Notes under the pieces: model-generated | Seen by the model: only the letters and a program-made list of their open reading frames with translations | What the model was told of the DNA's origin: nothing | The model's database searches: none | From: Mycobacteroides chelonae CCUG 47445 | Lineage (GTDB): Bacteria > Actinomycetota > Actinomycetes > Mycobacteriales > Mycobacteriaceae | Reading direction: 5' to 3' | Length of the DNA: 64,000 bases | Assembly: GCF_001632805.1 (NCBI RefSeq) | Contig: NZ_CP007220.1 | Span: 248,001-312,000 of the forward strand | Shown: in pieces, positions 28,724 to 48,504 of the stretch | Layout of the letters: each line of letters starts with the position of its first letter | Numbering within the stretch: position 1 is the first letter of the stretch | Position numbers and translations under genes: made by a program

Positions 28724-29272
28724 GTGAGCCTCTTCGAAATCGAAACCAGCGCCTTCTGCACCGCCTCCCCCGACGAGCTGTACGCATTGGTCAGTGACCT
28801 CCCCGAGAGTGGTCGCTGGAGCCCTGAATGCATTGGTGGACAATGGATATCAGGCGAGCCGGGCCAGGTTGGCGCCCGCTTCCGTGGAAACAACAACCGT
28901 GCGACCGACGTCGTCGCCTGGGCGCCCGTAGTGCGCGGCGGTTGGCAGACCGAAAGCGAGATTGTGGCGGCCGAAGCGCCGAAGCAATTCAGCTGGTCGA
29001 TCCTGAACCGTTCCGGTGAGCTACAGGAGAGCGTCTGGAGCTACTTCGTCGACGCTGCCGAGGGCGGATCGATCCTGCGGCACCACTACCGGATGGGCAG
29101 GCCCACCGAGGGCATCACCGAAATCATGTCGCACCTCGACGAAGAGGGTAAGGAACGCTTTGTCCGCGAATGGGGCGACAAACTCCGTGTCGATATGCAG
29201 GCCACCGTGGACGCCATCTCGCGTATCACCGAGGAAGCCAGTATTACCCAGAAAGCCGGAGTATCCCAATGA
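28724..29272 (+). CDS. SRPBCC (polyketide cyclase/dehydrase-like) protein
   Basis: A 182-residue START-fold protein. FEIETSAFCTASPDELYALVSDLPESGRWSP (in two parts) is the usual first strand plus helix pair, and the C-terminal helix is RFVREWGDKLRVDMQATVDAI. Members bind hydrophobic small molecules, and some act as cyclases or dehydratases in aromatic metabolite pathways. It is the first gene after the repeated motif, starts with GTG, and overlaps the AMP-ligase gene by 4 bp. I infer a ligand-binding or cyclase role in the cluster. Confidence 0.75.
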   Translation: MSLFEIETSAFCTASPDELYALVSDLPESGRWSPECIGGQWISGEPGQVGARFRGNNNRATDVVAWAPVVRGGWQTESEIVAAEAPKQFSWSILNRSGELQESVWSYFVDAAEGGSILRHHYRMGRPTEGITEIMSHLDEEGKERFVREWGDKLRVDMQATVDAISRITEEASITQKAGVSQ

Positions 29273-30834
29273 TTCTGCAGCGCATCGGAAACCGCGGTAT
29301 CAAGCTCGGTGCGCTCTTCGAGCGCGCGGCACGTAAGCATCCCTCCAACACGCTGACCCTGGACCATCGACCTTCGCTGGCCCCGCAACTGGAAGGCACG
29401 TCGACCATCGCTCAGGTGGCGGCGGCTGTTGACGACATCGGCCGGCGGCTACGTGCCGCCGGTGTCGCGCCGGGAGACAAGCTGGTTATCCATAAGTCCG
29501 ACGGTTTCGACATCACACTGGCGGCCTGTGCCGCGGCCCGCATCGGTGCGGTGCCGGTTCTGTTGTCCCCCAAACTCGATGGCCCGACGGTAGCGACCCT
29601 CATTGGCCGCGTCGGCAATCCCACCCTGCTTACCGATGCCGCCAAACTGGATGGCGACTTGGCGGGGCAGCCCATCGCCGAGCTCACCTCCCGCGTGCTG
29701 CTCGCCGAAGGCGAGCATCCCCAGGCTGTGACGCTGTCGGGACTCACACCCGCCGCGGCCGCACCCGCCGTCGTACCCAGCCCGCACGACCCCGCACTCA
29801 TCACCCACACCTCCGGCACCACCGGGGTGCCAAAGCTTGCCGTGCACACCAACTTCACCTTCGAGGCGCGGTATCGGCCACAGGCCGCCGTGGCGGCCCT
29901 GGTACGCCGCCGCGAACCCCTGGTCATTCATGTTTCCTTCGTACATTCACGCCTGGTGACGGCGCTGGCCATCGCGATTCTTCGCGGCTTCCCCGTGGTG
30001 GTGCTGGTCGACGACGAACCCGAGCACGCCGCGGAGATCTTCCTGCGGGTAAAGCCGGGAATCCTTGAGGCCCACCCGAACACATTTATCAACTGGGAAG
30101 TGCTGGCCGACGATCCGCGGCGGCCGCTGGCCTCGGTCAAGTACTTCAGCAGCACCTTCGATGCCATTCACCCGCGCACCGTGCGTACCCTGCTGGCGGC
30201 TACGCAGCGCCGGCGCCCGCTCTTCGGGCAGCTCTACGGTCAAAGTGAGGTGGGGCCGATCGTCGCACGTGGCTTCAGTCGCCTGCGCTCTGCCGATTCC
30301 GATGGACGGTGCGTTGGCTACCCGTTCCCGGGCATGACCGATGTGCGGATCGTGTCGCGCAATGGGCAGCCGCCTTCAGCGGAGAACCCCGGTTACATCG
30401 AGGTGCGCACCGATGGGCGAATCCGTACTTACCTCGGCGAGCAAGATCGTTACGACAAGCAACTCGACGACGGTTGGTGGCGGATGGGCGATGTCGGCTA
30501 CCGCACCCGTTGGGGCTGCATCCACCTACTGGACCGTGAGGTCGACCTCATCGACGGCTTCGGCAGCACCCTGGCCGCCGAGGATCGCCTGTTCCTGGCG
30601 GTGGATGAACTCACCGAGGTAATCATCGTCGCCGGCCCCGGCGGGCTCGCGCAACCGGTCGTGTGCACGAAAAACGATGTGCCACTTAACCTTAATGCAT
30701 GGGACGCGGCAGCGGCTCAGTTACCGCCGATGGCTCCGCCGTTGCATCTGCGTCTTGACGAGCTGCCGCAAACAGCGACCACCAAAATCAAGAGACTGGA
30801 ATTGTCGGCGCGGATCGGCGCGGGGGCCATCTGA
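29269..30834 (+). CDS. AMP-forming acid ligase (FadD-like; possible diazotase)
   Basis: A 521-residue ANL-superfamily enzyme. The ATP loop is THTSGTTGVPKLAVH, A5 is YGQSEVGP, A7 is WWRMGDVGYR, A8 is LLDREVDLIDGFG, and the catalytic A10 lysine is near the end in ATTKIKRLEL. It should adenylate a carboxylic acid and join it to CoA or another acceptor. In this operon, beside nitrous-acid-type genes, it may instead act like CreM/CmaA6, ligase homologues that use ATP to activate nitrite and diazotise an aromatic amine. The sequence alone does not separate these roles. It overlaps both neighbours. Confidence 0.85.
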   Translation: MILQRIGNRGIKLGALFERAARKHPSNTLTLDHRPSLAPQLEGTSTIAQVAAAVDDIGRRLRAAGVAPGDKLVIHKSDGFDITLAACAAARIGAVPVLLSPKLDGPTVATLIGRVGNPTLLTDAAKLDGDLAGQPIAELTSRVLLAEGEHPQAVTLSGLTPAAAAPAVVPSPHDPALITHTSGTTGVPKLAVHTNFTFEARYRPQAAVAALVRRREPLVIHVSFVHSRLVTALAIAILRGFPVVVLVDDEPEHAAEIFLRVKPGILEAHPNTFINWEVLADDPRRPLASVKYFSSTFDAIHPRTVRTLLAATQRRRPLFGQLYGQSEVGPIVARGFSRLRSADSDGRCVGYPFPGMTDVRIVSRNGQPPSAENPGYIEVRTDGRIRTYLGEQDRYDKQLDDGWWRMGDVGYRTRWGCIHLLDREVDLIDGFGSTLAAEDRLFLAVDELTEVIIVAGPGGLAQPVVCTKNDVPLNLNAWDAAAAQLPPMAPPLHLRLDELPQTATTKIKRLELSARIGAGAI

Positions 30835-32039
30835 TGTCGCGGCTCGTTGTGGTCGGCGGCGGTATCGGCGGCCTTGCCATTGCCTTGAGTGCCGCAGCCT
30901 CCGGTAACGACGTGGTCGTGTTGGAGAGGGCGCGCGAGTTCGCCGAGATCGGTGCTGGTATCCAGCTTGCACCCAATGGATTACGCGCTCTCAGCCTGCT
31001 CGGTGTAGGTGACAAGATTGAGCGCATCGGAGTCCAGGTCGATTCGTTGCGGCTCTTCGACGCCACCGTCGATCGGTTGATCAACACGATGAGCCTGGGT
31101 GCGGACTACCAGCATCGCTTCGACAGCCCCTACCTGGTCGTGCACCGCGCCGAGCTGCACCGCATCCTGGTGGAGGCGTGCGCCTCGGATCCACGTATCG
31201 AACTACGCAGCCGTAGTGAGGTATTCGGATACCAACAGGATGCCGGGGGAGTGCGCGCACTGCTCGCCGACGGCACCAGCGTGGACGGCGATGGTCTCAT
31301 CGGCGCCGACGGCATCAACTCGTCAATCCGGCGGGCACTGCTCGACGACGGTGAACCGCGAGTCGCCGGTATCACGGTGTACCGCACCACGGTGCCCATC
31401 GACCAGGTTGACGAGAGCCTGCAATCCAACTCGGTCACCTGGTGGACCGGGCCCGGGTGCCATCTGGTGACCTATCCCATCGCGGGGGGCTCACTGCTGA
31501 ATCTGGCGGCAAGCCGTACCGATGGCGTCACACAGGCGTTTTCAGGCGTCGAAGTCAGTGAGGCGCGTGTGTTGCGGGAGCTGGCGCCGTTGCGTGGAAC
31601 GGCCCGCAGCCTGCTCGAACTGGGGCGGGAATGGAGATCCTGGGCGCTCGTGGACCGCGACCCGGTGCGGCAGTGGTCGGATGGCCGCGTCGTGTTGCTG
31701 GGCGATGCGGCGCATCCCATGCTGCACTACGCGGCGCAGGGTGCCAGCCAGGCACTGGAGGACGCGGTGGTTCTCGGCGCGCTCATCGGCGCGGACCCAG
31801 ACAGGCTGCCCGGCAGATTCACCAGGTACGTCGAGGCGCGGCGTGACCGCACCGCCGATGTGACACTCGCGGCGCGGGACAGCATCGGCATCTGGCATGC
31901 GGCGGGCGACGCCGCCGTCGAACGTAACGAGAAATTGGGTGCCATGCGTGATTCCGATCTGCATGACGAGTTGGCCTGGATGCATGGTGACACCGATTTC
32001 GGGCTAGCGGCAGTCACCTCGGCGGTAGGGGCGCGATAA
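30834..32039 (+). CDS. Class A FAD-dependent aromatic monooxygenase
   Basis: A 401-residue single-component flavin hydroxylase of the salicylate/3-hydroxybenzoate hydroxylase group. The three fingerprints are complete: GGGIGGLAIALS near the N-terminus, the middle GADGINSSIR segment, and LLGDAAHPMLHYAAQGASQALED. It uses NAD(P)H and oxygen to hydroxylate an electron-rich ring, sometimes with loss of a carboxylate. The product of the second operon (3-hydroxyanthranilate or a derivative) is a plausible substrate. It starts one base inside the ligase stop. Confidence 0.88.
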   Translation: MSRLVVVGGGIGGLAIALSAAASGNDVVVLERAREFAEIGAGIQLAPNGLRALSLLGVGDKIERIGVQVDSLRLFDATVDRLINTMSLGADYQHRFDSPYLVVHRAELHRILVEACASDPRIELRSRSEVFGYQQDAGGVRALLADGTSVDGDGLIGADGINSSIRRALLDDGEPRVAGITVYRTTVPIDQVDESLQSNSVTWWTGPGCHLVTYPIAGGSLLNLAASRTDGVTQAFSGVEVSEARVLRELAPLRGTARSLLELGREWRSWALVDRDPVRQWSDGRVVLLGDAAHPMLHYAAQGASQALEDAVVLGALIGADPDRLPGRFTRYVEARRDRTADVTLAARDSIGIWHAAGDAAVERNEKLGAMRDSDLHDELAWMHGDTDFGLAAVTSAVGAR

Positions 32040-33980
32040 ATGTCGAACCAACAGATATGCATCATCGGTGCGGGACCGCGCGGTCTGGCGGTGCTGGAGC
32101 GTCTGTGCGCCAACGAGCGTCAAGCGCCCAGCGCGGACCGAATCGTCGTGCACGTTGTCGATCCCTACTCCCCGGGCGCCGGATCCGTCTGGCGCACCGA
32201 TCAGTCCTGGCATCTGTTGATGAACACCGTGGCATCACAAATCACCGTGTTCACCGACGACAGCGTGGCCATCGAGGGGCCCATCGAACCGGGGCCAACG
32301 CTCTACGAGTGGGCACAGAGCCTTGCCCTGCTGGGTGATCCGTCCCGCAGCGGTGAGAAGGCCATCGCGGAGGCACGCACGCTGCGATCCAACTCCTATC
32401 CCACGCGCGCCCTCTACGGGCATTACCTCAGCGACAGTTTCGCCCGTGTCGTCGGGTGGGCGCCCGAGCATCTGACGGTGCGGGTGCATCGATCCCGTGC
32501 GGTGGCGTTGGCAGACACCCACGGTGATATCGATGGGCCGCAGGGGGTTCGGCTGGAGGATGGGACCAGGTTGCATGACCTCAGTGCCGTTATTCTCGCC
32601 GTCGGTCATGTGCCCGCGGGTCTGCGTCCCGGCGAGGCGCGAGCAGCTTCCCTAGCCCGTATCCACGGGCTGACCTACGTCACACCGGCGAACCCAGCCG
32701 ATATCGATCTGTCCTCCATCAAAGCCGGTGAGCCCGTGGCGGTTCGGGGTCTGGGTCTGAACTTCTTCGACTATATGGCGTTGTTGACGGTAGGTCGGGG
32801 CGGAAAGTTTCTCCGGGACAACGGCGATGAAGGAGGGCGACTGGTGTATCGCCCGTCGGGGCAGGAACCGATTCTGTACGCCAGCTCGCGCCGGGGGATC
32901 CCCTATCACGCACGCGGTGAGAATCAGAAGGGATCCTCGGGTCGTTATTTCCCGCGGTTGCTCACGGTGGAGCGCATCGCTCAGCTTCGCGAGAATCTCG
33001 GCGGTCTCCTACAGTTCCGCCGTGACCTGTGGCCGCTCATCGCGCGAGAGGTGGAATGCGTCTACTACGAAGGGCATCTGACGCAGCGGGGGCTGCCGGT
33101 GCAAGCCTTTTCCGAGCGGTACCTGAACGCTGACGAGAGCGAACTACACGCAATCTTGTCCGATCATGACCTGCTCGAGATCGCGTGGGAATGGGACGAC
33201 CTCGATCGCCCGTGGGGGAAGCGCACGTTCAGCGGCCCGGACGAATTCACCGCATGGATTCTCGAGCACCTGCGTGCCGATGTGGTGATGGCCCGCGAGG
33301 GCAATGTCGACGGTCCGGTGAAGGCCGCACTGGATGTGTTGCGGGACCTGCGCAATGAGATTCGGCTCGCGGTGGACCACGGTGGGCTCGACGGTAAGTC
33401 GTACCGGGATGAGTTGGAGAGCTGGTACACCCCGTTGAATGCCTTCCTGTCTATCGGCCCTCCGGCCCAGCGGATTGAAGAGATCATCGCGCTGGTGGAG
33501 GCCGGGGTCATGCATCTGGTGGGACCACAGATGCAGGTGCGCTTCGACACTCATGATCCGGCTGTGGTCATCGAGTCACCCCTGGTGCCGGGGTCGGCCG
33601 TCAGGACGCGCAGTCTCATCGAGGCGCGATTGCATGAGCCGGATCTGCGCCGCAGCAGTGACCCCTTGCTGATGTTCCTGCAGGAGACCGGGCAATGCCG
33701 CCCTTACGAGATTCCCACCGATGATCACAAGGCCTACCAGACAAAGGGACTGGCGGTGACCGAGCGTCCTTATCGTTTGATCGGCGCCGACGGAAGAGTT
33801 CACCCGCGCCGGTTCGCCTACGGAGTTCCCACCGAGTCGGTGCACTGGGTCACCGCGGCGGGTATCAGGCCGGGAGTGGATTCGGTGACCCTGGGCGACG
33901 CCGATGCCATTGCGCGCGCCGCCTTGGCCAGCGCACCCAGCCCAGTCGCGGATGTGGGTGATCACGGAGTGTTGGTGTGA
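32040..33980 (+). CDS. Large FAD/NAD(P)-binding protein, candidate aspartate N-oxygenase (CreE-like)
   Basis: A 646-residue flavoprotein with an N-terminal Rossmann motif IIGAGPRGLAVLERL and a W-x-L-LMNTVASQITVFTD block, the FAD_NAD_binding_9 pattern. A second nucleotide-binding region is near residues 215-260 (VAVRGLGLNFFDYM). CreE and FzmM, which oxidise L-aspartate stepwise to nitrosuccinate, belong to flavoproteins of this kind and are encoded beside a fumarase-superfamily lyase. The next gene here is such a lyase and overlaps by 4 bp. The N-oxygenase role is therefore inferred from family and pairing, not from defined active-site residues. Confidence 0.7.
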   Translation: MSNQQICIIGAGPRGLAVLERLCANERQAPSADRIVVHVVDPYSPGAGSVWRTDQSWHLLMNTVASQITVFTDDSVAIEGPIEPGPTLYEWAQSLALLGDPSRSGEKAIAEARTLRSNSYPTRALYGHYLSDSFARVVGWAPEHLTVRVHRSRAVALADTHGDIDGPQGVRLEDGTRLHDLSAVILAVGHVPAGLRPGEARAASLARIHGLTYVTPANPADIDLSSIKAGEPVAVRGLGLNFFDYMALLTVGRGGKFLRDNGDEGGRLVYRPSGQEPILYASSRRGIPYHARGENQKGSSGRYFPRLLTVERIAQLRENLGGLLQFRRDLWPLIAREVECVYYEGHLTQRGLPVQAFSERYLNADESELHAILSDHDLLEIAWEWDDLDRPWGKRTFSGPDEFTAWILEHLRADVVMAREGNVDGPVKAALDVLRDLRNEIRLAVDHGGLDGKSYRDELESWYTPLNAFLSIGPPAQRIEEIIALVEAGVMHLVGPQMQVRFDTHDPAVVIESPLVPGSAVRTRSLIEARLHEPDLRRSSDPLLMFLQETGQCRPYEIPTDDHKAYQTKGLAVTERPYRLIGADGRVHPRRFAYGVPTESVHWVTAAGIRPGVDSVTLGDADAIARAALASAPSPVADVGDHGVLV

Positions 33981-35359
33981 GCGGTTTCCTGGAGACCGGG
34001 CTGCTCTCACCCGTCAGTGCCGGCACCGTCGCCGAGGCTGAACTGACGGATGCCGCGTGGCTGCAGGCGATGCTCGACGCGGAAGCCGCGCTGGCTGCCG
34101 CGCAGGCCGATATCGGAGTTCTGCCCAGGAGCGCAGCGGATGTCATCGCCAAGGCCGTGGCCACCCACGATATCGACGTCCGCGCCGTGGCACTGTCCGC
34201 GAGGGAGACGGCTAATCCCGTTGTGGGTCTGATCAAGGAACTGACCCGAGTGGTGGGTGAAATCGATCCGAGTGCAACCGATTACGTACACCGCGGGTCG
34301 ACCAGCCAGGACATCCTCGATACCGGTGCCATGATCCTGACCAAGCGCCTACTGGGACTCGTTGCCACGGACCTGGGATATGTGGCCGAGGCACTCGCCG
34401 TCCTGGCGGTCGAGCACAGGGACACCGTCATGGCCGCTCGCACACTGGCGGTGCAGGCAGTGCCGACGACATTCGGGCTCAAGGCATCTGGCTGGCGTGA
34501 GCTCGTTCTCGAGGCACGTACACGTGTGCTCGCGGTGGCCGGTGCCCTTCCGGTATCGCTCGGGGGCGCGGCGGGCACCCTGGCGGGGTACCTCGAATAC
34601 GCTGGACCGCAGGGCGCCGAACCCGGGGCGTTCGTCGAAAAGCTGAACGCCGCCTTCGCAACCCGGACCGGACTGGCCCCGTCTGGGTTGCCGTGGCACG
34701 CGTTACGCAGTCCGATAGCCGATATCGGTAGCACCACGGCGTTTGTGGCGGGTGCTCTCGGCAAGTTCGCCATCGACGTTCTGACGTTGAGTCGCACCGA
34801 GATCGCCGAAGTCGCCGAGCCGGCACCACCGGGGCGCGGGGTTTCCTCAGCCATGCCGCATAAGCGGAACCCGGTGTTGGCCACGATGATCCGATCGGCC
34901 GCACTACAGGTTCCGGCGCTGAGCATCATTCTCACGAACTCGTTGCTCAGTGAGGACGAACGGTCCGCAGGGGGGTGGCATGCGGAGTGGCTGGCTTTGC
35001 GTGAATGTCTGCGTCTCACCGGAGGCGCGGCACAGACGGCTGTCGATCTGAGCCGCGGACTGCAGGTACGTGCGCAGCGGATGTCGGACAACCTTGCGTT
35101 GCTCGGTGGACAGCCCTCGGCCGAGCGGCTGTCGGCGGCGCTATCCCCGAGACTGGGCAAGGGCGGTGCGAAGGCCGCCGTCTCCGCTGTGGTCGACGCG
35201 GCAGTCGCGCGCGGCGTGAGTTTGCGTGAGGTGGCTGTTGCCCAGCCCGAGATCACCGCGTGGTTGAGCGAGACCGAGATCGATGAACTGTTGGACCCGG
35301 TCACCTATGTCGGAGCTGCAGGTCAATTGGTTGAGGGGGTCATCGAGCGCCAATTCTGA
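33977..35359 (+). CDS. Fumarase/adenylosuccinate lyase-superfamily lyase, candidate nitrosuccinate lyase (CreD-like)
   Basis: A 460-residue lyase of the superfamily that includes 3-carboxy-cis,cis-muconate cycloisomerase (PcaB). The signature loop reads VSSAMPHKRNPV, and DYVHRGSTSQDILDT carries the first conserved block. No other beta-ketoadipate genes are nearby, so a protocatechuate role is unlikely. CreD/FzmL-type nitrosuccinate lyases have this ancestry and release nitrous acid plus fumarate from nitrosuccinate. GTG start overlaps the stop of the preceding flavoprotein, which suggests a tight functional pair. Last gene of operon 1. Confidence 0.75.
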   Translation: MSGFLETGLLSPVSAGTVAEAELTDAAWLQAMLDAEAALAAAQADIGVLPRSAADVIAKAVATHDIDVRAVALSARETANPVVGLIKELTRVVGEIDPSATDYVHRGSTSQDILDTGAMILTKRLLGLVATDLGYVAEALAVLAVEHRDTVMAARTLAVQAVPTTFGLKASGWRELVLEARTRVLAVAGALPVSLGGAAGTLAGYLEYAGPQGAEPGAFVEKLNAAFATRTGLAPSGLPWHALRSPIADIGSTTAFVAGALGKFAIDVLTLSRTEIAEVAEPAPPGRGVSSAMPHKRNPVLATMIRSAALQVPALSIILTNSLLSEDERSAGGWHAEWLALRECLRLTGGAAQTAVDLSRGLQVRAQRMSDNLALLGGQPSAERLSAALSPRLGKGGAKAAVSAVVDAAVARGVSLREVAVAQPEITAWLSETEIDELLDPVTYVGAAGQLVEGVIERQF

Positions 35360-35400
35360 GGTAGCCACCTGCGGGAATTTTCCCTCACGTCGATTCTTTG

Positions 35401-35431: not shown

Positions 35432-35479
35432 GCCATAGCCCGCCCTTACCGTTGCCACGCACACACGGCAGACGGGTAG

Positions 35480-37327: not shown

Positions 37328-38509
37328 CACCAGGCATCCGACCGTAGCGGCGATCGACACCAGGGTTGCGTGGCGGTGCCATCCGGTGAACGAGCGCCCC
37401 GCGAAGTCCTGCATGCCCATGCGGTTCGCCAGGTGCAGGTATCCCTGCTGCACGTGATCGGCCAGTGCCACCTGGTGTGCCTGAGACGAGGTGGAGAACT
37501 CGGGGTCGTTGGTCAGCCAGAGTTCGGTACGAGCCCGCGAATGATCCAGTGGCGTCATGCCGACGAGGGTCAACGGTGTCCGTGAACGAGCCGCGGACGG
37601 GTCGGCCAGCTGCACCTTCGCGATGCTGATCAGGTGGCGACGCCCCTGGTAGACGTACTGTTCGGTGCGTCGCGAGCCCTTCGTGGCCTGCACGATTTGT
37701 GCTGCCGGAAGTACGCGGCCCTGATAGCCCACGAACGCCGGGTCGACAATCTGCAGTTGCAGGTCGCCCGATACTCGTGAGGTCGCGACCTGGTGGGTCA
37801 AGCTGCCGAACAGCTGGGTCAGATCCGCGCCGTTGGCGCCCAGCAGGTCGAAGACCACCGGGGCATTCGACGGTCGGGCCACCTTGAGAAACTCCTGGAA
37901 AGCCGAGAGTGCGCATCCGCTGACAGATTCCAAGGGGTAGTCCTCGGGGATCGAGGTCTTGGATTTCTTGGTGGCCGATTCCAGCCAGGGCTGCGAGAGA
38001 TGCAGACGCCAGCTGACGGGCACCGCGAATCCGTCGGCCGCCAGCCACACACTGAGCGCCAGCTGACCATTGACAGCACGCCCGGCGCGGGGGCAGTAGC
38101 GGCGGTCCACTCCCACCGAGTGCACTCCGGCCTTGGGAATCAGCATCGGCGTGACCACCCAGGCGGCGGGGTGATAGGCGCTGGTGAGGTAGCTCGTCAG
38201 ATCTCGACGGACCGACCACCAATCCCACGTGGAGCTATTGACGAAGTGATGCAGGTTCTGCTCACTCACCTCGCGCCCCATGGACTGCCCCATGGTGGCT
38301 GCCATGTTCCGAGCGGACTTGCGGCCGCGGACCTTCAGCAGGCCGGTGACATAGTCCTCACCCTTGGCCCGCTGGTCGCACCGTGGCAGTGATCGCAGCA
38401 CGTCGGGGCACACGTGCGCCGCCACCGACGCCATGGCGTCGACCGGAGAAACACGAGGACGCGTGTCGAATAGTTCGGGTGCGGCCTGCACCTTGGTCGC
38501 AGATGTCAT
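37223..38509 (-). CDS. IS701-like transposase-derived protein, probably inactive as a transposase
   Basis: A 428-residue protein aligning by eye with IS701-type DDE proteins: an RGRKSARNMA segment, LHHFVNSSTWDWW, then PKAGVHSVGVDRRYC and AGRSFTGWHRHATLVS. The first catalytic Asp, normally just before GFPK/GFLK, is replaced in WVVTPMLIPK. The late Glu of the F-E-GRSW-type motif is Ala in DFAGRSF. No terminal inverted repeats or target duplications are visible. It is intact with no stops, so I infer a domesticated DNA-binding protein, perhaps a regulator of the cluster. The 3' end overlaps the PucR-like gene by 105 bp. Confidence 0.75.
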   Translation of the reverse strand: MTSATKVQAAPELFDTRPRVSPVDAMASVAAHVCPDVLRSLPRCDQRAKGEDYVTGLLKVRGRKSARNMAATMGQSMGREVSEQNLHHFVNSSTWDWWSVRRDLTSYLTSAYHPAAWVVTPMLIPKAGVHSVGVDRRYCPRAGRAVNGQLALSVWLAADGFAVPVSWRLHLSQPWLESATKKSKTSIPEDYPLESVSGCALSAFQEFLKVARPSNAPVVFDLLGANGADLTQLFGSLTHQVATSRVSGDLQLQIVDPAFVGYQGRVLPAAQIVQATKGSRRTEQYVYQGRRHLISIAKVQLADPSAARSRTPLTLVGMTPLDHSRARTELWLTNDPEFSTSSQAHQVALADHVQQGYLHLANRMGMQDFAGRSFTGWHRHATLVSIAATVGCLVSPGLASEQRTTNFPQLDGELRVQEALGILPTVTQ

Positions 38510-38773: not shown

Positions 38774-38823
38774 TTGAATTCGCGATTGTTTGGTGCGCGA
38801 CGCCCCATCTCGAAGATAGAGAG

Positions 38824-40449
38824 GTGATTACCCGGCGGGCGTTGCTAGGCACGACATTTGCGTTGGCTGGGGCGGCCGCACTAGCGGGCTGTGGCTCGCA
38901 GGCCAGTGCGGCGGATCCGCAAGTTTCGGTCACCGGTGGCGCGATCCGCGGGGGAACGGCGGGAAAGGTCCACGTCTTCCGCGGCATTCCCTACGCACAG
39001 CCGCCGACCGGGGAGAACCGTTTTCGTTCCCCCCGTCCGGCGGTTCCGTGGCGAAATACTTTGAACACCACACGGTTCGGACCTGACTTCATCCAACCGG
39101 CCGGTGGTGACCCGGTGCGCCAGGAAGACGCGTTGTATGCCAACGTCTGGACGCCCACGGTGGACGCGGGAGCCAAGCTGCCCGTCATCGTCTACATCCA
39201 TGGTGGCGGCTGGTCCCGGGGAGCGGGCAGTCTCCCGGTGTACGACGGGGCGGCGCTCGCCGAGCGCGTCGGAGCAGTCGTCGTCAACTTCAATTACCGG
39301 CTGGGTGCCTTCGGCTTCTGCGGTCATCCCGCGCTCGAAGATCCCGACACCGGACTGCACACCAACTGGGGTCTGCAGGACCAGATCGCACTGTTGCGGT
39401 GGGTTAGTGAGAATGCCAAGGCTTTTGGTGGTGACCCGGGCAACATCACGCTCGTCGGCACCTCGGCGGGCGGCGCCAGCACCTGGCAATTGGCCCTGCA
39501 CCCGCAGACCAGGCCGCTGCTGCGCCGAATCATCAGCATCAGCCAGGCCCATGTCTGGAGTCCGTATCTGAGCTTGACGCCCGACGATGCCACGGCGGTG
39601 TTCGACGCACTGGCCGCCGCGCAGGGGGTTTCGGTCAAGAACCTGAAAGAGGTCCCCGCCGATCGGATCCGCGACTGGTGGGTGGCGCAGTTCGCCCTGC
39701 CGAGGTCGCAGCGTGTGGCCAAGAGCGGTCGGCAGTATCGCGGACCGGTTCTGGATCCGGTGTTGCTCCCGGCCTTCGACGTCAATCAACCGATACCGGA
39801 TATCCCCACCATCTCCATCTACACCAGCACGGAGGGTTCGTTCTTCACCGGACCCAACGCGCCTGACCCGCAACCGCAGCCGACCGATGCGGCGTCACTG
39901 CACGCTGCCTTCCGCGACATCCTCGAGCAGGGCGTATCGCCGTTATCCGACGCGACCGTTGCCGATGCTGTTGCCGTCTATACGGATTCGGCACGACAGG
40001 ATGGCCGCCCAACCGATCCGCTGTCGTTGTGGACCGAACTGTGGGGCGATGCGCTGATCCGGCACGACATCCTTGCCTTCACCCGCCGCGCGACGGTCGA
40101 GCGGCGCGCGCCGCTGTATCTGATGGAGTACGCACACCCGGTACAGCCTCCGTATTTCGGCGTACCGCACGAATCGACATCACCTTTCCTCTTCGGCACC
40201 TACGCGCATCCTTCCAATGTGGCCAAGTTCGGAGACGGGCCGAAGGAGCGTGAAACCTCCGCCGCTTTCATGGATCTGGTAGCGGAGTTCGCACATGGCC
40301 GCGCACCGGCAAGTCCGCGGCTTCCGCAATGGGATCCGGTTGGCCAGGACTTGCGGCAGCTCGTGCTTCGCGACGGTGCCGGAACAATCGCCACCCCTAC
40401 CAAGACCACACAGCTGGGCGTTCTTGACGCAGTCCAGTGGGGCAAGTGA
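38824..40449 (+). CDS. Exported type B carboxylesterase (Tat/lipoprotein signal)
   Basis: A 541-residue carboxylesterase of the cholinesterase-like family. The start region has twin arginines (TRRALLGT), a hydrophobic stretch and a lipobox-like ALAGC, so it may leave by Tat and be lipidated. The oxyanion motif is IHGGGWSRG, the nucleophile elbow is GTSAGGAS, and RGIPYAQPP is typical. It would hydrolyse esters outside the cytoplasm, for example releasing or detoxifying a cluster product. GTG start; it is followed 31 bases on by the DAHP synthase gene, so it probably leads operon 2. Confidence 0.85.
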   Translation: MITRRALLGTTFALAGAAALAGCGSQASAADPQVSVTGGAIRGGTAGKVHVFRGIPYAQPPTGENRFRSPRPAVPWRNTLNTTRFGPDFIQPAGGDPVRQEDALYANVWTPTVDAGAKLPVIVYIHGGGWSRGAGSLPVYDGAALAERVGAVVVNFNYRLGAFGFCGHPALEDPDTGLHTNWGLQDQIALLRWVSENAKAFGGDPGNITLVGTSAGGASTWQLALHPQTRPLLRRIISISQAHVWSPYLSLTPDDATAVFDALAAAQGVSVKNLKEVPADRIRDWWVAQFALPRSQRVAKSGRQYRGPVLDPVLLPAFDVNQPIPDIPTISIYTSTEGSFFTGPNAPDPQPQPTDAASLHAAFRDILEQGVSPLSDATVADAVAVYTDSARQDGRPTDPLSLWTELWGDALIRHDILAFTRRATVERRAPLYLMEYAHPVQPPYFGVPHESTSPFLFGTYAHPSNVAKFGDGPKERETSAAFMDLVAEFAHGRAPASPRLPQWDPVGQDLRQLVLRDGAGTIATPTKTTQLGVLDAVQWGK

Positions 40450-40480
40450 ATCAGAAATCAATCGAATGGAGATCACGAGA

Positions 40481-41647
40481 ATGACTGCGCCATCACTGCT
40501 GCTCGACACCGGACGTGCGGTACAACAGCCGGTCTGGGAGAACCACGCACATCTGGAACGTGTGCGTGCCGAACTCAGCGAGCTGCCCGCATTGATCGGG
40601 GCCGACGAGATCAGGACTCTGCGCACGCTGCTGAGCACCGTCGCTCAGGGCCGCGCCACCATCATTCAGGCGGGCGACTGCGCGGAGGATCCGCAGGAGT
40701 CGACCAACGCGCACGTGGCCCGCAAGGTAGCGCTGCTCAACGTACTCGCCGGCACGATGCGGATGAAGACTCACCGGCCGGTGCTGCGGGTCGGACGCAT
40801 CGGCGGCCAATACGCGAAGCCGAGGTCTAAGCCCACCGAGACGATCGATGGCGTCGAACTTCCCTCTTTCCGTGGGCATCTCGTCAATGGTCCGCAGCCT
40901 CATCCGGTGCATCGGCGTGCCAATCCGGATCGGATGCTCGCCGGTTATTGGGCCGCGAACCGGGTGATGGGTCATCTGGGTTGGCGGGTGCCGTCCTCGC
41001 TCTCGGTCATCGAGCCGCCGGTGTGGACGTCCCACGAGGCGCTGCTGCTGGACTACGAGGCGCCGCAGCTGCGTCGCGACGGCGAGAACCGCATGGTGCT
41101 CACGTCCACGCACTGGCCCTGGATCGGTGACCGGACCCGCCATCTGGACGGGCCGCATGTCGAATTGTTCTCGCGCATCGCCAATCCTGTGGCATGCAAG
41201 GTGGGCCCGTCGATGACGACCGAGGATCTCCTCGCGCTGTGCGACAAGCTGGATCCGGAGCACGAGAGTGGGCGGTTGACGCTGATCGCGCGGTTGGGTG
41301 CGTCGGCTGTACGCGACAAGCTGCCGGAATTGGTTGCCGCAGTGCGTGAATCCGGACACCCCGTGATCTGGCTGTGCGATCCGCTGCACGCCAATACCGT
41401 GTCCACCGAGTCCGGGTACAAGACGAGGCACGTCCAGACGGCCATCGATGAGGTCCGCGGCTTCCGTGAGGTACTTGCCGAGGCGGGTGTGCACGCGGGT
41501 GGATTGCACCTGGAAGCCACGCCCGACGACGTCGTCGAGTGCGTCCTCGACGGCTCACAGAACCACGAGGTAGGTCAGCGGTATTCGACGCTGTGCGATC
41601 CGCGCCTCAATACGGCGCAGGCCACCGAAGTGGTGTCGGCATGGTAG
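40481..41647 (+). CDS. Class II DAHP synthase (PhzC-type)
   Basis: A 388-residue type II 3-deoxy-D-arabino-heptulosonate-7-phosphate synthase, the first step of the shikimate pathway. Family motifs: QAGDCAED (metal Cys), RVGRIGGQYAKPRS, the KVGP loop, WLCDPLHANT (metal His), HLEATPDDVVEC (metal Glu), and CDPRLNTAQA. It lacks the N-terminal extension used for aromatic feedback control in mycobacterial AroG (about 460 residues), as in PhzC of phenazine clusters. That would let it boost chorismate for a secondary pathway. ATG at 40481 with GGAG upstream. Overlaps the SDR gene by 7 bp. Confidence 0.92.
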   Translation: MTAPSLLLDTGRAVQQPVWENHAHLERVRAELSELPALIGADEIRTLRTLLSTVAQGRATIIQAGDCAEDPQESTNAHVARKVALLNVLAGTMRMKTHRPVLRVGRIGGQYAKPRSKPTETIDGVELPSFRGHLVNGPQPHPVHRRANPDRMLAGYWAANRVMGHLGWRVPSSLSVIEPPVWTSHEALLLDYEAPQLRRDGENRMVLTSTHWPWIGDRTRHLDGPHVELFSRIANPVACKVGPSMTTEDLLALCDKLDPEHESGRLTLIARLGASAVRDKLPELVAAVRESGHPVIWLCDPLHANTVSTESGYKTRHVQTAIDEVRGFREVLAEAGVHAGGLHLEATPDDVVECVLDGSQNHEVGQRYSTLCDPRLNTAQATEVVSAW

Positions 41648-42399
41648 CGGTGGTCACCGGCGCCGGCGGGGGAGTCGGATCTCGTGTGGTGACCACGTTG
41701 GCTCGTCGGGACGAGCGGGTTGTTGCGGTGGACGTCGATGAGGTCGCCATCAAACAGCTCGTCGAGTACGCCGCCGACGAGGGGCTGGACATCATCGGGC
41801 AGGTGCTCGACATCACCGACGACACCGCGGTGGCGGTCGGGGTATCGGACATCGAGTCTCGGATCGGACCGATCACCTCATTGGTGAATGGTGCGGGAGT
41901 GCTGAGAACAGGTGCAGCGGTGGAGTTCTCGGATGCCGACTGGGCGCGGACCTTCGACGTCAACGTGCGCGCTCCCTTTGTTCTGAGCCGCGAGGTGGCT
42001 CGATACATGATTCCCCGCCGCGCAGGGTCGATCGTGACGATCGCCTCTAATGCCGCTCTGGTGGCTCGCAAGGGGATGACGGCGTACGCCGCATCCAAGG
42101 CGGCCGCCAACGCGTTCACCAAGAGTCTGGGGCTCGAGCTCGCCGAGCATGGAATCCGATGCAACGTCGTGGCGCCCGGCTCGACGGACACTCCCATGCT
42201 GCGCGCCATGCTGGGCGATTCCTCGGACTCCGGATTGGTGGCCGGCAGCCTGGACGACTTCAAGCCGGGGATTCCCCTGGGGCGCATCGCACAACCACAA
42301 CACATCGCCGACGCTGTGGCTTTTCTTTCTTCCGACCAAGCTGCCCACATCACCATGCACACGCTGGTGGTCGATGGCGGCGCGACGTTAGGGGTTTGA
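41641..42399 (+). CDS. SDR, candidate 2,3-dihydro-3-hydroxyanthranilate dehydrogenase
   Basis: A 252-residue classical SDR in the style of EntA/DhbA. It has the cofactor motif TGAGGGVGS, the LVNGAG segment, catalytic Ser in IASNAA, and Tyr/Lys in YAASKAA. Placed between a PhzC-like and a PhzD-like gene, it should oxidise trans-2,3-dihydro-3-hydroxyanthranilate to aromatic 3-hydroxyanthranilate, as EntA does for the 2,3-dihydroxybenzoate series. The start overlaps the DAHP synthase stop. The exact substrate is inferred from context. Confidence 0.85.
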   Translation: MVAVVTGAGGGVGSRVVTTLARRDERVVAVDVDEVAIKQLVEYAADEGLDIIGQVLDITDDTAVAVGVSDIESRIGPITSLVNGAGVLRTGAAVEFSDADWARTFDVNVRAPFVLSREVARYMIPRRAGSIVTIASNAALVARKGMTAYAASKAAANAFTKSLGLELAEHGIRCNVVAPGSTDTPMLRAMLGDSSDSGLVAGSLDDFKPGIPLGRIAQPQHIADAVAFLSSDQAAHITMHTLVVDGGATLGV

Positions 42400-42402
42400 C
42401 CA

Positions 42403-43038
42403 ATGACCACTGCCACCCGCGGCATCCCGATCATCGCCGAGTACGACCTGCCGACCGTGGATCTACTGCCCGCCAACACGGCGACATGGCAGATCGATCC
42501 CGCACGCGCCGTATTGCTCATTCACGACATGCAGCGCTATTTCCTCGCACCGCTGCCGGTGTCGTTGCGTGATCAACTGGTGAGCAATGTCGCGGCCATC
42601 CGCGACAGGTCGGTGGCCGCGGGTATCCCGATCGCCTACACCGCTCAGCCCGGCAGCATGACCCAGGAGCAGCGTGGCCTGCTCAAGGACTTCTGGGGCC
42701 CCGGGATGCGGGTGGACGAGGAGCACCGTCAGATCGTCGATCCGATCGCACCCGACGCGGGTGACTGGGTCTTCACCAAATGGCGGTACAGCGCCTTTCA
42801 TCGTTCTGCGTTGTTGGAACGGATGCACGCAGCGGGACGCGACCAGTTGGTGATCTGCGGCGTGTACGCACATGTGGGCGTGTTGATGACCGCGGTGGAC
42901 GCGTTCACCCACGATATCGAGACCTTCCTGGTTGCCGATGCGATCGCCGATTTCGACGACGAATCACACTGGATGGCTTTGGAATACGCGGCACGGCGGT
43001 GCGCCGTGCTGACCGTCACGGACGAGGTGCTGACATGA
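42403..43038 (+). CDS. PhzD-type isochorismatase
   Basis: A 211-residue isochorismatase-fold hydrolase. It has [10 protein letters not shown] with the catalytic Asp, FTKWRYSAF with the catalytic Lys, and [11 protein letters not shown], where a Cys nucleophile of related amidases is absent, as in PhzD and EntB. It has no carrier domain, which favours PhzD over EntB. In a PhzE context it should cleave the enolpyruvyl group from 2-amino-2-deoxyisochorismate to give dihydro-3-hydroxyanthranilate and pyruvate. ATGA overlap with the next gene. Confidence 0.9.
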
Positions 43039-44891
43039 GCGATCTACTGGGACGTGTATTGGCGGGAGCAACCGGGCCATTTGCCCTGCTGTACCGCCCG
43101 GAATCCGGCGCACCCGATGCCGTCGACGTCGTCACCGGCACGGTGACATCTGTCGAGCGGATCGCCGACCTTCCGCTGCGTGACGGGCATAGTGGGCATG
43201 ACCTGCTGGCGTTGGTGCCGTACCGGCAGATCGCCGAGCGCGGATTTGTAGCGCCCGATGACGGTGCTCCGCTACTGGCGCTTGCCGTCGAGCAGCAGGA
43301 GTCGGCGCCGTTGTCGGAGGTGTTGGACCGAATTCCCGAGTATCCGGTGGTGGTGGGCCACAGCGATTTCGACATCGACGATGCGGAGTACGCGCGTCTG
43401 GCCTCGGGAATTATCTCCGAGGAGATCGGACAGGGGGCCGGAGCCAACTTCGTGCTCAAGCGGAACCTGTTGGTCCAGCTGCATGACTATTCGATCAACA
43501 CCGCGCTAACGCTCTTTCGGAGACTGCTGGAGCGGGAGAAGGGCGCGTACTGGACGTTCCTGGTGAGCACCGGCGAGCAGGTATTCATCGGCGCGACCCC
43601 CGAACGCCATATCAGCGTGCAGGATTCGTTGGCGGTGATGAATCCGATCAGCGGGACGTATCGATACGGTGCCAACGGCCCGAACCTGGATGCGGTGATG
43701 GAGTTCCTCGCCGACACCAAGGAATCCGACGAGCTCTACATGGTGGTCGATGAAGAGCTGAAGATGATGGCCCGAATCTGCCCCGATGGCGGGCAGGTGC
43801 AGGGACCGTACTTGAAGGAAATGGCGCGGCTCGCGCACACCGAGTATCTGATTTCCGGTGTTACTGATCGGGATCCGCGTGAGATCTTGGCCGAGACGAT
43901 GTTCGCGCCGACGGTGACGGGAAGCCCGCTGGAGAACGCGTGCCGTGTCATTCAACGGTATGAACCCAAGGGCCGCCGGTACTACAGCGGCGTTGCCGCA
44001 TTGATCAGCACAGACACGGCCGGTGTGCGGCAATTGGATTCGGCCATCTTGATCCGCACCGCGGAGATCGCACCAGGTGGCGCACTCACCGCGGGCACTG
44101 GCGCCACCATCGTTCGGCATTCCAACCCCGCGAGCGAGGCCGCCGAAACCCGTAGCAAGGCTGCCGGATTACTCTCTGCCTTGACGACACGTCGGGAGCT
44201 TCGCAGTCATCCCCGGGTGACGGAGGCTCTGGCCAGTCGCAACACCGGCATCGGGACCTTCTGGCTGGGACACGGATCGGGAGAGAACGCCGCGAATCTG
44301 GTGGGCCGCACCGCGCTGGTAGTCGACGCCGAGGACACGTTCACCTCGATGATCGGATTGCAATTGCGGGCCTTGGGTTTACGCGTAGACATCCGCCGAT
44401 TCGACGAGGATATCCAACCCGGCGCGCATGACATCCTGGTACTTGGCCCCGGCCCGGGCGATCCGACGGCCATCGATGTTCCGAAGATTGCGACACTGAC
44501 CGCTTTGACGAAGACCGCACTGACTCAGCGCATTCCGTTTCTATCGATCTGCCTGAGCCATCAGGTGCTGTGCCGGCAGTTGGGCCTGCCGGTTCGTCGT
44601 CGGGAGCAGCCCAATCAGGGCGTGCAGCGGCAGATCGATTTGTTCGGAACCGAGCGGCATGTCGGGTTCTACAACACCTTCGCCGCGGTGACGAGCGGGG
44701 AGTGGGTCGATACGCCCGCAGGGCGGGTGCAGATCAGTGCCGATGCCGTGACGGGTGAGGTTCATGCGGTGCGCGCCAAGCGGTTTGCATCCATCCAATT
44801 CCACGCAGAGTCCATCCTCACCCGCGATGGCGTGGGGATCTTCGGTGAGCTGCTCACGCCGCTGGCGACGGGTGTTCCGGTACTAGCATGA
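43035..44891 (+). CDS. PhzE-type 2-amino-2-deoxyisochorismate synthase
   Basis: A 618-residue fusion of a chorismate-utilising (anthranilate-synthase-like) domain, about residues 1-425, and a class I glutaminase domain, about 440-618. The first holds PISGTYRYG and the [15 protein letters not shown] stretch. The second has the nucleophile in ICLSHQVLC and the His-Glu pair in QFHAES. Length and fused order match PhzE (about 630), not the split TrpE/TrpG. It converts chorismate plus glutamine-derived ammonia to 2-amino-2-deoxyisochorismate. Anthranilate synthase is the alternative, but PhzD next door argues against it. Confidence 0.88.
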
Positions 44892-45847
44892 CAAGTGTGC
44901 GCATAGACATTCACGCTCACCTGTGGTCTGACGACTACCTGTCGTTACTCGACGAGTATGGGAGGGCCGGTACCGATGTCCATCGTGGCCTCGGTGCCGG
45001 GGCGACGCGTACCGATTTGGATGGGCGTTTCGCGCTGATGGATGAGGCGGGTGTCGACCTGCAGATCCTCTCGGCTACACCGGCATCACCTCATTTCGAG
45101 GACGAGACCGCCGCCGTCGAGAGCGCCCGGTTCATCAACGACGAGTACGCGAAGCTCGCCAGTGAGTATCCGGGGAGGTTCCGCGCGCTGGCGTCACTGC
45201 CGCTGCCGCACATCCCGGCCGCGTTGGAGGAGCTGAACCGTGCGATCGACGATCTGGGCATGTACGGCGCGTCGATCACGACCTCCGTACTTGGCCGGTC
45301 GATAGCCGATCCGATATTCGATCCGCTCTACGAGGAATTGAATAGCAGGGGCGCAATACTTTTCGTTCATCCGGCAGGATGCGGCGCGGATTCGTCCTTG
45401 ATCACCGATCACTCGCTCACCTGGTCGATCGGAGCGCCGATCGAGGACACGATCGCCATCATGCACCTCATTGTCGCGGGTATCCCATCGCGTTATCCGG
45501 ATATGAAGATCGTGACGTGTCATCTGGGCGGGGCCTTACCGATGGTGCTGGAGCGCGCGAACCGTCAGGTGACTGAATGGGAAGCGACCCATTGTCCGGA
45601 GGCGCCCAAGGATGCTGCCCGGCGGCTGTGGTTCGACACGGTGGGGCATGACCACACTCCGGCACTGCAGGCAGCTGTCGCATCGCTCGGTGCCGATCGG
45701 TTGGTGTTCGGCTCGGACTTCCCGTACCAGGGAGGTGCCAGGTACGTCAGTTCTGCGACGTACATCCAGGAGGGGCTGTCATCCGACGACGCTTCGTTGA
45801 TCCTGGACCGCAATGGGGCCGAGCTGCTGGGGTTGGACGGCGATTAG
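44888..45847 (+). CDS. Amidohydrolase-2 family protein (ACMSD-like)
   Basis: A 319-residue TIM-barrel metal hydrolase/decarboxylase. The metal ligands are visible: DIHAHLW (HxH) at the N-terminus, a His in FVHPAG, a His in VTCHLGG, and an Asp in FGSDFPYQGG. The family includes aminocarboxymuconate-semialdehyde and resorcylate decarboxylases. It is the last gene of operon 2 (ATGA overlap). It could decarboxylate 3-hydroxyanthranilate or a derivative. Another possibility is ring closure to a benzoxazole, since amidohydrolases paired with acid ligases do this in nataxazole and A33853 pathways. Confidence 0.82.
   Translation: MTSVRIDIHAHLWSDDYLSLLDEYGRAGTDVHRGLGAGATRTDLDGRFALMDEAGVDLQILSATPASPHFEDETAAVESARFINDEYAKLASEYPGRFRALASLPLPHIPAALEELNRAIDDLGMYGASITTSVLGRSIADPIFDPLYEELNSRGAILFVHPAGCGADSSLITDHSLTWSIGAPIEDTIAIMHLIVAGIPSRYPDMKIVTCHLGGALPMVLERANRQVTEWEATHCPEAPKDAARRLWFDTVGHDHTPALQAAVASLGADRLVFGSDFPYQGGARYVSSATYIQEGLSSDDASLILDRNGAELLGLDGD

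Positions 45848-46558: not shown

Positions 46559-48504
<1,946 letters not shown>

Follow-up and report, generated by a model that had tools for sequence, protein, structure and literature searches.

We analyzed a stretch of 64,000 nucleotides of Mycobacteroides chelonae CCUG 47445 (hereafter the window, in whose numbering all coordinates are given). Sequence searches revealed that it carries a CreE/CreD nitrite pair alongside a complete 3-hydroxyanthranilate (3-HAA) gene set. Unless stated otherwise, genes lie on the plus strand. A quinone-oxidoreductase-like reductase of the StnH1/NybC/Pzm13 type (27592..28599; TIGR02824, 144 bits, below the cut-off of 296.8) precedes operon 1, which encodes an SRPBCC (START/Bet v1 fold) protein of the StnI/NybN/Pzm19 type (28724..29272; PF10604), an ATP-dependent ANL ligase of the StnJ/NybO/Pzm18 type (29269..30834; PF00501), a class A flavin monooxygenase of the StnH2/NybP type (30834..32039), a CreE-type L-aspartate N-hydroxylase (nitrosuccinate synthase, 32040..33980) and a CreD-type nitrosuccinate lyase with predicted nitrite release (33977..35359). 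The monooxygenase scores 388 bits against NF006021, a 3-hydroxybenzoate 6-monooxygenase model whose cut-off of 459 bits it does not reach. A PucR/CdaR-type regulator with a GAF domain follows (35480..37327; PF13556, PF17853, PF01590). Operon 2 encodes an exported type B carboxylesterase with a twin-arginine and lipobox-like N terminus (38824..40449; PF00135), a PhzC-like class II DAHP synthase (40481..41647; PF01474), an SDR of the 2,3-dihydro-2,3-dihydroxybenzoate dehydrogenase type (41641..42399; TIGR04316, 294.7 bits against a cut-off of 300), a PhzD-like isochorismatase (42403..43038; PF00857), a PhzE-like 2-amino-2-deoxyisochorismate synthase with chorismate-binding and glutamine amidotransferase parts (43035..44891; PF00425, PF00117) and an Amidohydro_2 aryl-decarboxylase-type enzyme that overlaps the phzE stop (44888..45847; PF04909). 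Every gene that the initial annotation had named in the two operons was found, in the order it gave. Absent from it were the quinone reductase and an IS701-family transposase-like gene on the minus strand between the operons (37223..38509; NF033540, above cut-off). An MFS transporter, the counterpart of MAB_0284c/StnG and a probable exporter, lies at 24860..26197 on the minus strand (PF07690).

Sequence and homologue lengths placed the start of the ligase at 29269 (521 aa, with an ATGA overlap with the SRPBCC stop), that of the DAHP synthase at 40481 and that of the SDR at 41641. The PhzE start was revised to 43035, which gives a protein of 618 aa and an ATGA overlap with phzD. In the longer, 703-aa ORF the initial 85 codons overlie phzD, and in the six nearest relatives TGA codons occur across the 703-aa alignment and none across the 618-aa gene.

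The genes of both operons are retained in all six other close genomes examined (three Mycobacteroides, three Mycobacterium sp.), with mean Ka/Ks values of 0.033-0.128 and no stops, a degree of conservation beyond chance. The co-occurrence of the two operons, on which the initial annotation had staked its proposal, thus holds throughout this set. The MFS transporter gene, which has been counted as a cluster member (PMC11206028 Table 1), also adjoins the operon in 6/6 of these relatives. In Segniliparus, a regulator counterpart (47% identical) sits after CreD, and operon 2 is headed by a carboxylesterase counterpart (51% identical) with an IS701-like gene ahead of it. The M. chelonae IS701-like gene is present in one copy in the genome, occupies the same site in all six close relatives and has the same Ka/Ks as CreE (0.057); flanking inverted repeats are imperfect only. 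A recent insertion was rejected on shared position, single copy, the Segniliparus counterpart and Ka/Ks, and the gene is probably domesticated. At the level of sequence, the genes of the locus, their families, their conservation and their linkage are demonstrated. The original annotation in M. abscessus was that of a phenazine or plain 3-HAA pathway, which would make CreE and CreD incidental. This has the PhzC/D/E homology in its favor (PMC2694998, in the part accessible), but the cluster parts stay together under purifying selection, and we regard it as highly improbable. No PhzF-family protein was found among 20 proteins scanned at the locus, the only genome-wide match being a distant one at 3.04 Mb, and a phenazine pathway was rejected on the missing match at the locus.

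In the PDB the CreE protein matches a single entry, 8cp2, a proven aspartate N-hydroxylase to which it aligns end to end (626 bits, residues 6-631), and creE overlaps creD by 4 bases. CreD exceeds the cut-off of the nitrosuccinate lyase model NF052556 by a small margin (654.4 against 650 bits); its best PDB match is CreD 5xny (492 bits), ahead of CMLE at 264 bits. The nitrite fingerprint of ScCreD consists of E49, H118, D125, H253 and R341 together with an SSxMPxKRNP loop (PMC13411527). Placed by hand via the alignment to the 5xny match, all five residues are present in the window protein (E36, H105, D112, H241 and R329), and the loop reads SSAMPHKRNP. Both proteins therefore belong to the families to which they had initially been assigned, and the proposed pairing of 3-HAA genes with a CreE/CreD-type nitrite supply is upheld. 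Judged by homology, CreE and CreD probably yield nitrite from aspartate. Among plasmid-borne CreD relatives we observed two CreE/CreD clusters with other partners, ligases at 46-47% identity and no SRPBCC match, and in addition one unannotated record; these relatives were left out of the comparisons below.

The P-loop, YGQSE, GD, R423 and K506 of the ligase are invariant in 17 aligned homologues. The enzyme is CreM-related, as had been suggested. Against the AvaA6 diazotase model NF058622 it scored 72.9 bits (cut-off 975), a weak test of diazotase identity because the model is an equivalog for one substrate. A plain fatty-acid or aryl-CoA ligase was rejected on weak PDB and NCBIfam scores as against 60-68% identity to a family linked to nitrite sources, although the enzyme may have an extra acid-activating role. 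Searching genome contigs with the ligase gave 384 matching stretches, of which 80 were retained as loci; counts were made with tblastn because ORF calls in these loci include antisense artefacts. The SRPBCC protein was present at 74/80 ligase loci and the quinone reductase at 61/80, compared with 0/40 control stretches for the latter. Foldseek matches of the SRPBCC AlphaFold2 model (mean pLDDT 95) were SRPBCC folds including aromatase/cyclases, which suggests a generic START/Bet v1 fold without functional pointer.

A likely nitrite source lay within 10 kb at 60 of the 80 ligase loci and in none of 40 control stretches. CreE/CreD was found at 47/80 and a nitrate-reductase-like enzyme at 28/80, with both at 15, CreE/CreD only at 32, a NasC-like nitrate reductase only at 13 and neither in the stretch at 20; nitrate-reductase and NarK assignments denote the best model only, both scoring below their cut-offs. 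Four of the 20 sourceless stretches (L038, L041, L045, L070) have an above-cut-off CreD 3.6-6.2 kb beyond the stretch and L046 has a NasC-like match 11.9 kb beyond it, leaving 15/80 loci without a nearby nitrite source, among them four on contigs shorter than 9 kb (L014, L044, L057, L069). The genomes of L012, L024 and L031 gave no CreD-family match at E <= 1e-60, and each has a NasC-family match elsewhere; in that of L013 the best CreD match (551 bits) stays below the cut-off and NasC is not matched. On the ligase tree, switching between CreE/CreD only and nitrate reductase only requires at least five changes. Since the nitrite sources are exchangeable, these sequence patterns argue that the ligase/SRPBCC/quinone-reductase module uses nitrite as a substrate.

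We lean towards the view that the locus, which belongs to a cluster conserved in rapidly growing mycobacteria, encodes a nitrite-fed ring amination with 2,6-diaminohydroquinone/-benzoquinone, and not a diazo compound, as end product. Such a small, reactive aminoquinone would be related to the core of the antibiotics streptonigrin and diazaquinomycin. PhzC, PhzE and PhzD together with the SDR, which would take DHHA to 3-HAA, would convert chorismate to 3-HAA, and CreE followed by CreD would turn aspartate into nitrite. We infer that nitrite is a co-substrate of the ligase, which, with SRPBCC as partner, would activate it with ATP; the nitrite-derived nitrogen would enter 3-HAA at the C4 position, which is ortho to the phenol, and electrophilic C-nitrosation would be the simplest way for it to do so. 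Reduction of the nitrosophenol/quinone oxime by the quinone reductase would give the amine 2,4-diamino-3-hydroxybenzoate. In the step order we infer, the monooxygenase would then hydroxylate the ring at C6, which is para to O3. The amidohydrolase would next remove the carboxyl group, by then ortho to the C6 hydroxyl, to yield 2,6-diaminohydroquinone. Air would oxidize this to 2,6-diamino-1,4-benzoquinone, and the MFS pump would export the aminoquinone. The same net outcome, C4 amination, could arise by azo coupling, in which diazotised 3-HAA couples to C4 of another 3-HAA and the quinone reductase splits the azo bond. Quinone reductases are able to work as azoreductases. Such a route relies on known CreM-type activity and is no less compatible with the genomic data than C-nitrosation, but it requires two substrate molecules in sequence and the data do not call for it, so that we deem it quite unlikely. 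Returning to direct amination, the wider proposal that the ligase module performs new aromatic C-amination chemistry in many actinobacterial clusters, fed interchangeably by CreE/CreD or by a dedicated nitrate transporter and reductase, and makes a bare 2,6-diaminoquinone in an opportunistic mycobacterium is more tentative, and we hold it plausible rather than probable.

The ligase module is common to four clusters of known product, namely nyb, stn, pzm and the daq-type locus L058 of the diazaquinomycin producer Streptomyces sp. F001. Penzonemycin carries nitrogen at C4 of 3-HAA in its X-ray structure, nybomycin has been proposed to originate from 2,6-diaminophenol and, in the accessible part of PMC11213898, diazaquinomycin from 2,6-diaminohydroquinone. 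In all three cores the 3-HAA oxygen is flanked by nitrogen on either side; an N-N bond occurs in penzonemycin alone. Deamination via diazotisation in the style of avenalumic or p-coumaric acid, which would remove the amino group and not keep the nitrite nitrogen in the product, has already been described for CreE/CreD working with an ANL ligase (PMC10777205 and PMC11705231, in the parts accessible); since the known products of this cluster family retain two ring nitrogens, we consider it very unlikely here. For an amination, the nyb gene table is informative: it lists no aminotransferase and four hypothetical genes, and only PhzE (NybD) has a known amidotransferase role, which makes nitrite the best listed candidate for the second nitrogen of nybomycin. 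The open-licence literature searched does not link nitrite to nyb, stn or daq amination, a link that may still be published. The tailoring enzymes match the product structures and thus count in favor of the amination pathway: the amidohydrolase occurs in the nyb and daq-type clusters (cores without a carboxyl group) and is absent from the pzm table (product keeps it), and the monooxygenase occurs in the daq locus (core with a second oxygen) and is absent from the pzm table (product without it). The C6 role of the monooxygenase fails for nyb, as the nybomycin structure, which we take to lack an extra ring oxygen, comes from a cluster with this enzyme. Nor does the 3-HAA-first order fit streptonigrin, whose producer yielded 4-aminoanthranilate, without the 3-hydroxyl, that was isolated and incorporated (PMC6265801). 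Also counting against the amination reading are the 15 loci with no nearby nitrite source, the nyb table without a DhbA-type SDR and the distance of the window ligase from the AvaA6 diazotase model. The window amidohydrolase is 29-31% identical to the nyb and daq-type enzymes and far closer to a wide family of proteins from other bacteria, and its best PDB match is ACMSD (98 bits). It was therefore rejected as a NybL orthologue; sequence comparison suggests the same role for a different gene.

The initial annotation had favored an ortho-quinone diazide or related N-N compound as end product, which is not the likeliest outcome given that nybomycin and diazaquinomycin are without a module-made N-N bond. 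In this main rival reading, the CreM-related ligase would diazotise an amino group of 3-HAA, or of 3-HAA carrying a further amino group at C4, and the product would be an ortho-quinone diazide or a hydrazone. In its favor, CreM and Pzm18 share 48% identity (PMC9323291 Table 3), the L035 match of Pzm18 places it in one family with the window ligase, and penzonemycin has its N-N bond at C4. However, nyb and daq share this ligase and give cores without N-N. The pzm-type locus L035 has a second ligase in a clade of its own (support 100, seen in seven of the 80 loci), whereas the window genome has a single ligase of the family at E <= 1e-100. The monooxygenase, present in the window, occurs in 0/7 second-ligase loci and 43/73 remaining loci, a comparison that covers few independent events because the primary ligases of the seven loci are, with one exception, closely related. 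Altogether we judge a diazo product unlikely and prefer the nitrite-fed amination to an aminoquinone.

The locus is in print as MAB_0284c-0305, described as streptonigrin/nybomycin-like, with the CreD/CreE pair named 'PcaB' and 'hydroxylase/monooxygenase'; the M. abscessus phz locus influences Xenopus infection, and phzC deletion attenuates (PMC11206028). The earlier statement that no such mycobacterial product is known needs the addition that the locus has already been published as a putative metabolite cluster (PMC11206028). The term 'mycobacter' is absent from the accessible text of the diazo/N-N papers PMC10777205, PMC11705231, PMC11429834 and PMC13061610. Our proposal gives the M. abscessus phz locus a small, concrete and testable product candidate. 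If it is true, 2,6-diaminoquinone, a reactive core shared with streptonigrin, could account for the attenuation of the phzC mutant. Should the second ring nitrogen indeed derive from nitrite, its origin would be explained for nybomycin, streptonigrin and diazaquinomycin, the printed labels 'PcaB', 'acyl-CoA synthetase' and 'ammonia supply' would be corrected, and C-amination would join the uses of the aspartate-nitrosuccinate pathway, to date mainly N-N bonds. The exchange between CreE/CreD and a clustered nitrate-reductase-like enzyme offers a new handle for cluster mining.

The window carries in a single locus the gene combination that defines nyb, stn, daq and pzm: ligase, SRPBCC, quinone reductase, CreE, CreD and PhzC/D/E. 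As far as the accessible part of PMC11705231 goes, cremeomycin-type systems (CreE/CreD/CreM) share aspartate-derived nitrite and a CreM-related ANL ligase with it, but use another aminohydroxybenzoate and end in a diazo group. The pzm cluster shares PhzC/D/E, SDR, CreD, CreE, quinone reductase, ligase, SRPBCC and a transposase (PMC9323291). It differs in that its relative L035 has two ligases of the family, its table lists neither this monooxygenase type nor an amidohydrolase, and its product is N-N bonded and keeps the carboxyl group. In the accessible part of PMC11206028, stn has twelve genes in common with the window, including StnJ, StnI, StnH1, StnH2, StnK1 and StnL (Table 1), but comprises 48 genes for a large alkaloid product and has no amidohydrolase counterpart. 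In nyb, nybA/B/C/D/E/F/N/O/P correspond to CreD/CreE/quinone reductase/PhzE/PhzD/DAHP synthase/SRPBCC/ligase/monooxygenase, and the NybL-like amidohydrolase is 31% identical; its table is without a DhbA-type SDR and contains an acyltransferase, ketosynthase, methyltransferase and oxygenases. The Discussion of the nybomycin paper has NybL providing ammonia to anthranilate synthase and leaves nitrite unmentioned. The daq-type cluster of F001 (L058 with L138) has, unlike the window, ketosynthase genes and tandem arylamine N-acyltransferases, which we take to be daqS/daqT; the window cluster has the exported carboxylesterase and PucR regulator instead. Both share quinone reductase, SRPBCC, ligase, monooxygenase, CreE and CreD, as well as DAHP synthase, SDR, PhzD, PhzE, Amidohydro_2 and an IS701-like gene.

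The window comprises bases 248001-312000 of a single-contig genome of 5,029,817 bases and carries two operons. Operon 1 (27592-35359) encodes a quinone reductase, an SRPBCC protein, an ANL ligase, a monooxygenase, CreE and CreD, followed by a PucR regulator. Operon 2 (38824-45847) encodes an exported carboxylesterase, a DAHP synthase, an SDR, PhzD, PhzE and an amidohydrolase. An IS701-type transposase-like gene sits between them on the minus strand (37223-38509). Relative to the original calls, the revised start positions are 29269 for the ligase gene, 40481 for DAHP synthase, 41641 for SDR and 43035 for PhzE. ATGA overlaps at the SRPBCC/ligase, PhzD/PhzE and PhzE/amidohydrolase junctions show tight coupling of these genes. 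The gene order is near that of M. abscessus MAB_0284c-0305 (PMC11206028, table). A PF00756 esterase gene (26053-27558, plus strand) between an MFS gene and the quinone reductase gene is absent from that published table and, among six close relatives, L009 gave no match to it; it possibly lies outside the pathway. In ATCC 19977 the quinolone-degradation genes aqdRABC are located after MAB_0299 (PMC11206028, figure legend), whereas the window has only ~720 bases (45847-46568) between the amidohydrolase and aminotransferase genes, a gap holding a 4HBT thioesterase ORF (45844-46299, minus strand).

CreE and CreD correspond to the pair that makes nitrite from L-aspartate. CreE aligns along its whole length with 8cp2, an aspartate N-hydroxylase of solved structure (described in PMC10404684), and CreD scores 654.4 bits against the nitrosuccinate-lyase model (cut-off 650). 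Nitrite-using members are described as marked by E49, H118, D125, H253 and R341 plus an SSxMPxKRNP loop (PMC13411527); the window CreD has E36, H105, D112, H241 and R329 and the same loop. The M. abscessus counterparts are labelled PcaB and hydroxylase/monooxygenase, and nitrite is mentioned nowhere in the full text of that report (PMC11206028). The pair in the nybomycin (nyb) cluster is labelled 3-carboxymuconate cycloisomerase and FAD-binding protein; nitrite is not named in the Discussion of that report or among its term matches, where the lone 'nitr' word concerns nitrogen methylation (PMC6265801).

A ligase alignment of 17 sequences, used to scan named genomes, yielded 384 matching stretches; we kept the best 80 (numbered L, at most 10 kb each side) and counted their partner genes by tblastn. 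Among these best 80 of 384 loci, an SRPBCC gene was present in 74, a quinone reductase in 61, CreE in 47 and CreD in 45 (CreE without CreD in L054 and L061). Unexpectedly, 28 of the 80 carried a NasC-like molybdopterin oxidoreductase, accompanied by a NarK-like transporter in 27 (the exception being L071), and L056 had a NarK-like fragment alone; these names come from one representative each, scoring 738 bits with the NasC model (cut-off 1100) and 267.5 with the NarK family (cut-off 311.7). None of forty 20-kb control stretches, drawn from fixed positions in five of the ligase-locus genomes (13,128 masked bases), matched CreE, CreD, NarK, NasC, SRPBCC, quinone reductase or ligase; one NirB-like match was seen.

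By nitrite source, the best 80 loci divide into 32 with just CreE/CreD, 13 with just nitrate reductase, 15 with both types and 20 with neither type. Within the last group, an above-cut-off CreD lay 3.6-6.2 kb outside the stretch in L038, L041, L045 and L070, and a NasC-like match 11.9 kb outside in L046, leaving 15 of 80 sourceless, four of them on contigs below 9 kb. Seven others (L042, L049, L059, L063, L064, L075 and L081) had a CreD-family match elsewhere in the genome, that of L075 being below cut-off. The genomes of L012, L024 and L031 gave no CreD-family match at E <= 1e-60 and had a NasC-family match elsewhere; in that of L013 neither source was found, the top CreD match (551 bits) being below cut-off. 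CreD was absent from 35 loci; of the 34 genomes searched for these, eight lacked any CreD-family match, and in four of these eight (L027, L043, L053, L055) a nitrate-reductase-like enzyme was clustered at the ligase locus. On a FastTree ligase tree, the CreE/CreD-only and nitrate-reductase-only labels require at least five changes. These data are read most simply as a module of ligase, SRPBCC protein and quinone reductase that consumes nitrite, with interchangeable sources supplying it.

Stretches carrying a nitrate-reductase-like gene but lacking CreE/CreD are L016, L027, L043, L050, L052, L053, L055, L066, L067, L071, L073, L074 and L083; 11 of 12 such genomes searched held one or more additional matches to that gene family. 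Seven (L050, L052, L053, L066, L067, L074 and L083) form a Streptomyces cluster type whose common layout includes the module together with nitrate-reductase-like, old-yellow-enzyme-type reductase and asparagine-synthase-like genes, and a carboxylesterase 47-50% identical to that of the window.

All 14 genes from quinone reductase through amidohydrolase were found in six of six other close genomes (L004-L009; three titled Mycobacteroides, three Mycobacterium sp.). Their aligned parts contained zero stops, and mean Ka/Ks against the window ranged from 0.033 to 0.128 across the genes, compared with 0.036 for a nearby aspartate aminotransferase (five genomes). TGA codons in the relatives' PhzE vanish once the gene is read from 43035. 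The window ligase and its Mycobacteroides franklinii counterpart share 96% identity. In Segniliparus rugosus the SRPBCC-to-PucR and IS701-like-to-PhzE blocks retain their order at two separate genome places; the stretches examined showed neither the quinone reductase nor the amidohydrolase. The ligase family occurred at E <= 1e-100 in 3 of 301 sampled Mycobacteriaceae genomes and in 3 of 61 genomes of a second sample of relatives, the window's own genome counted both times; therefore, the cluster is rare beyond its close kin. Two Gordonia amidohydrolases (P0133, P0134) are 83% identical to that of the window, so the cluster may be present in Gordonia too.

In Segniliparus, nyb- and diazaquinomycin (daq)-type clusters and the close relatives of the window, the IS701-like gene is retained inside the cluster, present once and subject to purifying selection. 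It has printed counterparts in stnO and pzm10 and lies inside 17 of the best 80 of 384 stretches; it looks domesticated. Outside the window it maps to L095 (444-1625), L096 (3972-5072) and L138 (17414-18517), the last a stretch of Streptomyces sp. F001.

Products are known for four clusters of this family: penzonemycin (pzm), nybomycin, diazaquinomycin and streptonigrin. Their extra nitrogen corresponds to C4 of 3-hydroxyanthranilate (3-HAA), ortho to the phenol. Streptonigrin is an aminoquinone. Chemically, C4 is activated toward electrophilic attack in 3-HAA and not in anthranilate. We infer that the ligase acts as proposed, in a nitrite-fed amination at this carbon. L058 comes from the diazaquinomycin strain Streptomyces sp. 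F001, and the contig bearing it also holds ketosynthase-like genes, an amidohydrolase, an IS701-like gene and a tandem pair of arylamine N-acyltransferases (NATs), which we take to be daqS/daqT. The F001 NATs are described as using 2,6-diaminohydroquinone (PMC11213898). The X-ray structure of penzonemycin A has C1 COOH, C2 acetamide, C3 OH and a C4 hydrazone nitrogen (PMC9323291, section 5). 4-Aminoanthranilate is given as the streptonigrin precursor, and the Discussion of the same report proposes a nybomycin route via 2,6-diaminophenol; its nyb gene table lists no aminotransferase, four hypothetical genes and a single ligase of this kind (PMC6265801).

The F001 stretches and the window's genome likewise have one ligase. 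Streptomyces halstedii L035, which fits the pzm gene sizes (180, 527, 161, 334 and 406 aa), has two of the window ligase's family in tandem. The second forms a separate clade at seven loci (L024, L027, L032, L035, L039, L040, L046), where the monooxygenase is in 0 of 7 stretches versus 43 of the 73 others among the best 80 of 384. We read the first ligase as serving the ring nitrogen and the second the N-N bond, a reading based on a small number of independent events and a single known product with an N-N bond. The second-clade paralogue is a diazotase candidate in N-N natural product pathways.

The window monooxygenase is nearest to 3-hydroxybenzoate 6-hydroxylase (388 bits, below the 459 cut-off), an enzyme that hydroxylates para to an OH. 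A role in C6 hydroxylation does not fit nybomycin. The amidohydrolase sits in a decarboxylase-rich family, some relatives being named 6-methylsalicylate decarboxylase or the like in their source; in that substrate the carboxyl group is ortho to a hydroxyl. Genes resembling the amidohydrolase (29-31%) lie inside four of the best 80 of 384 stretches (L030, L041, L045, L070) and farther out in daq-type L058, L033 and L062. All seven loci have arylamine NATs, and 11 further loci have a NAT and no such gene within the stretch. No metabolite of the window locus is described in the open-licence literature searched, and for the phzC deletion complementation is not reported in the text of PMC11206028. 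The published pzm table lacks this amidohydrolase and monooxygenase, and penzonemycin retains COOH and has no C6 oxygen (PMC9323291); the window has both genes, from which its product is predicted to be 2,6-diaminohydroquinone or the quinone thereof.
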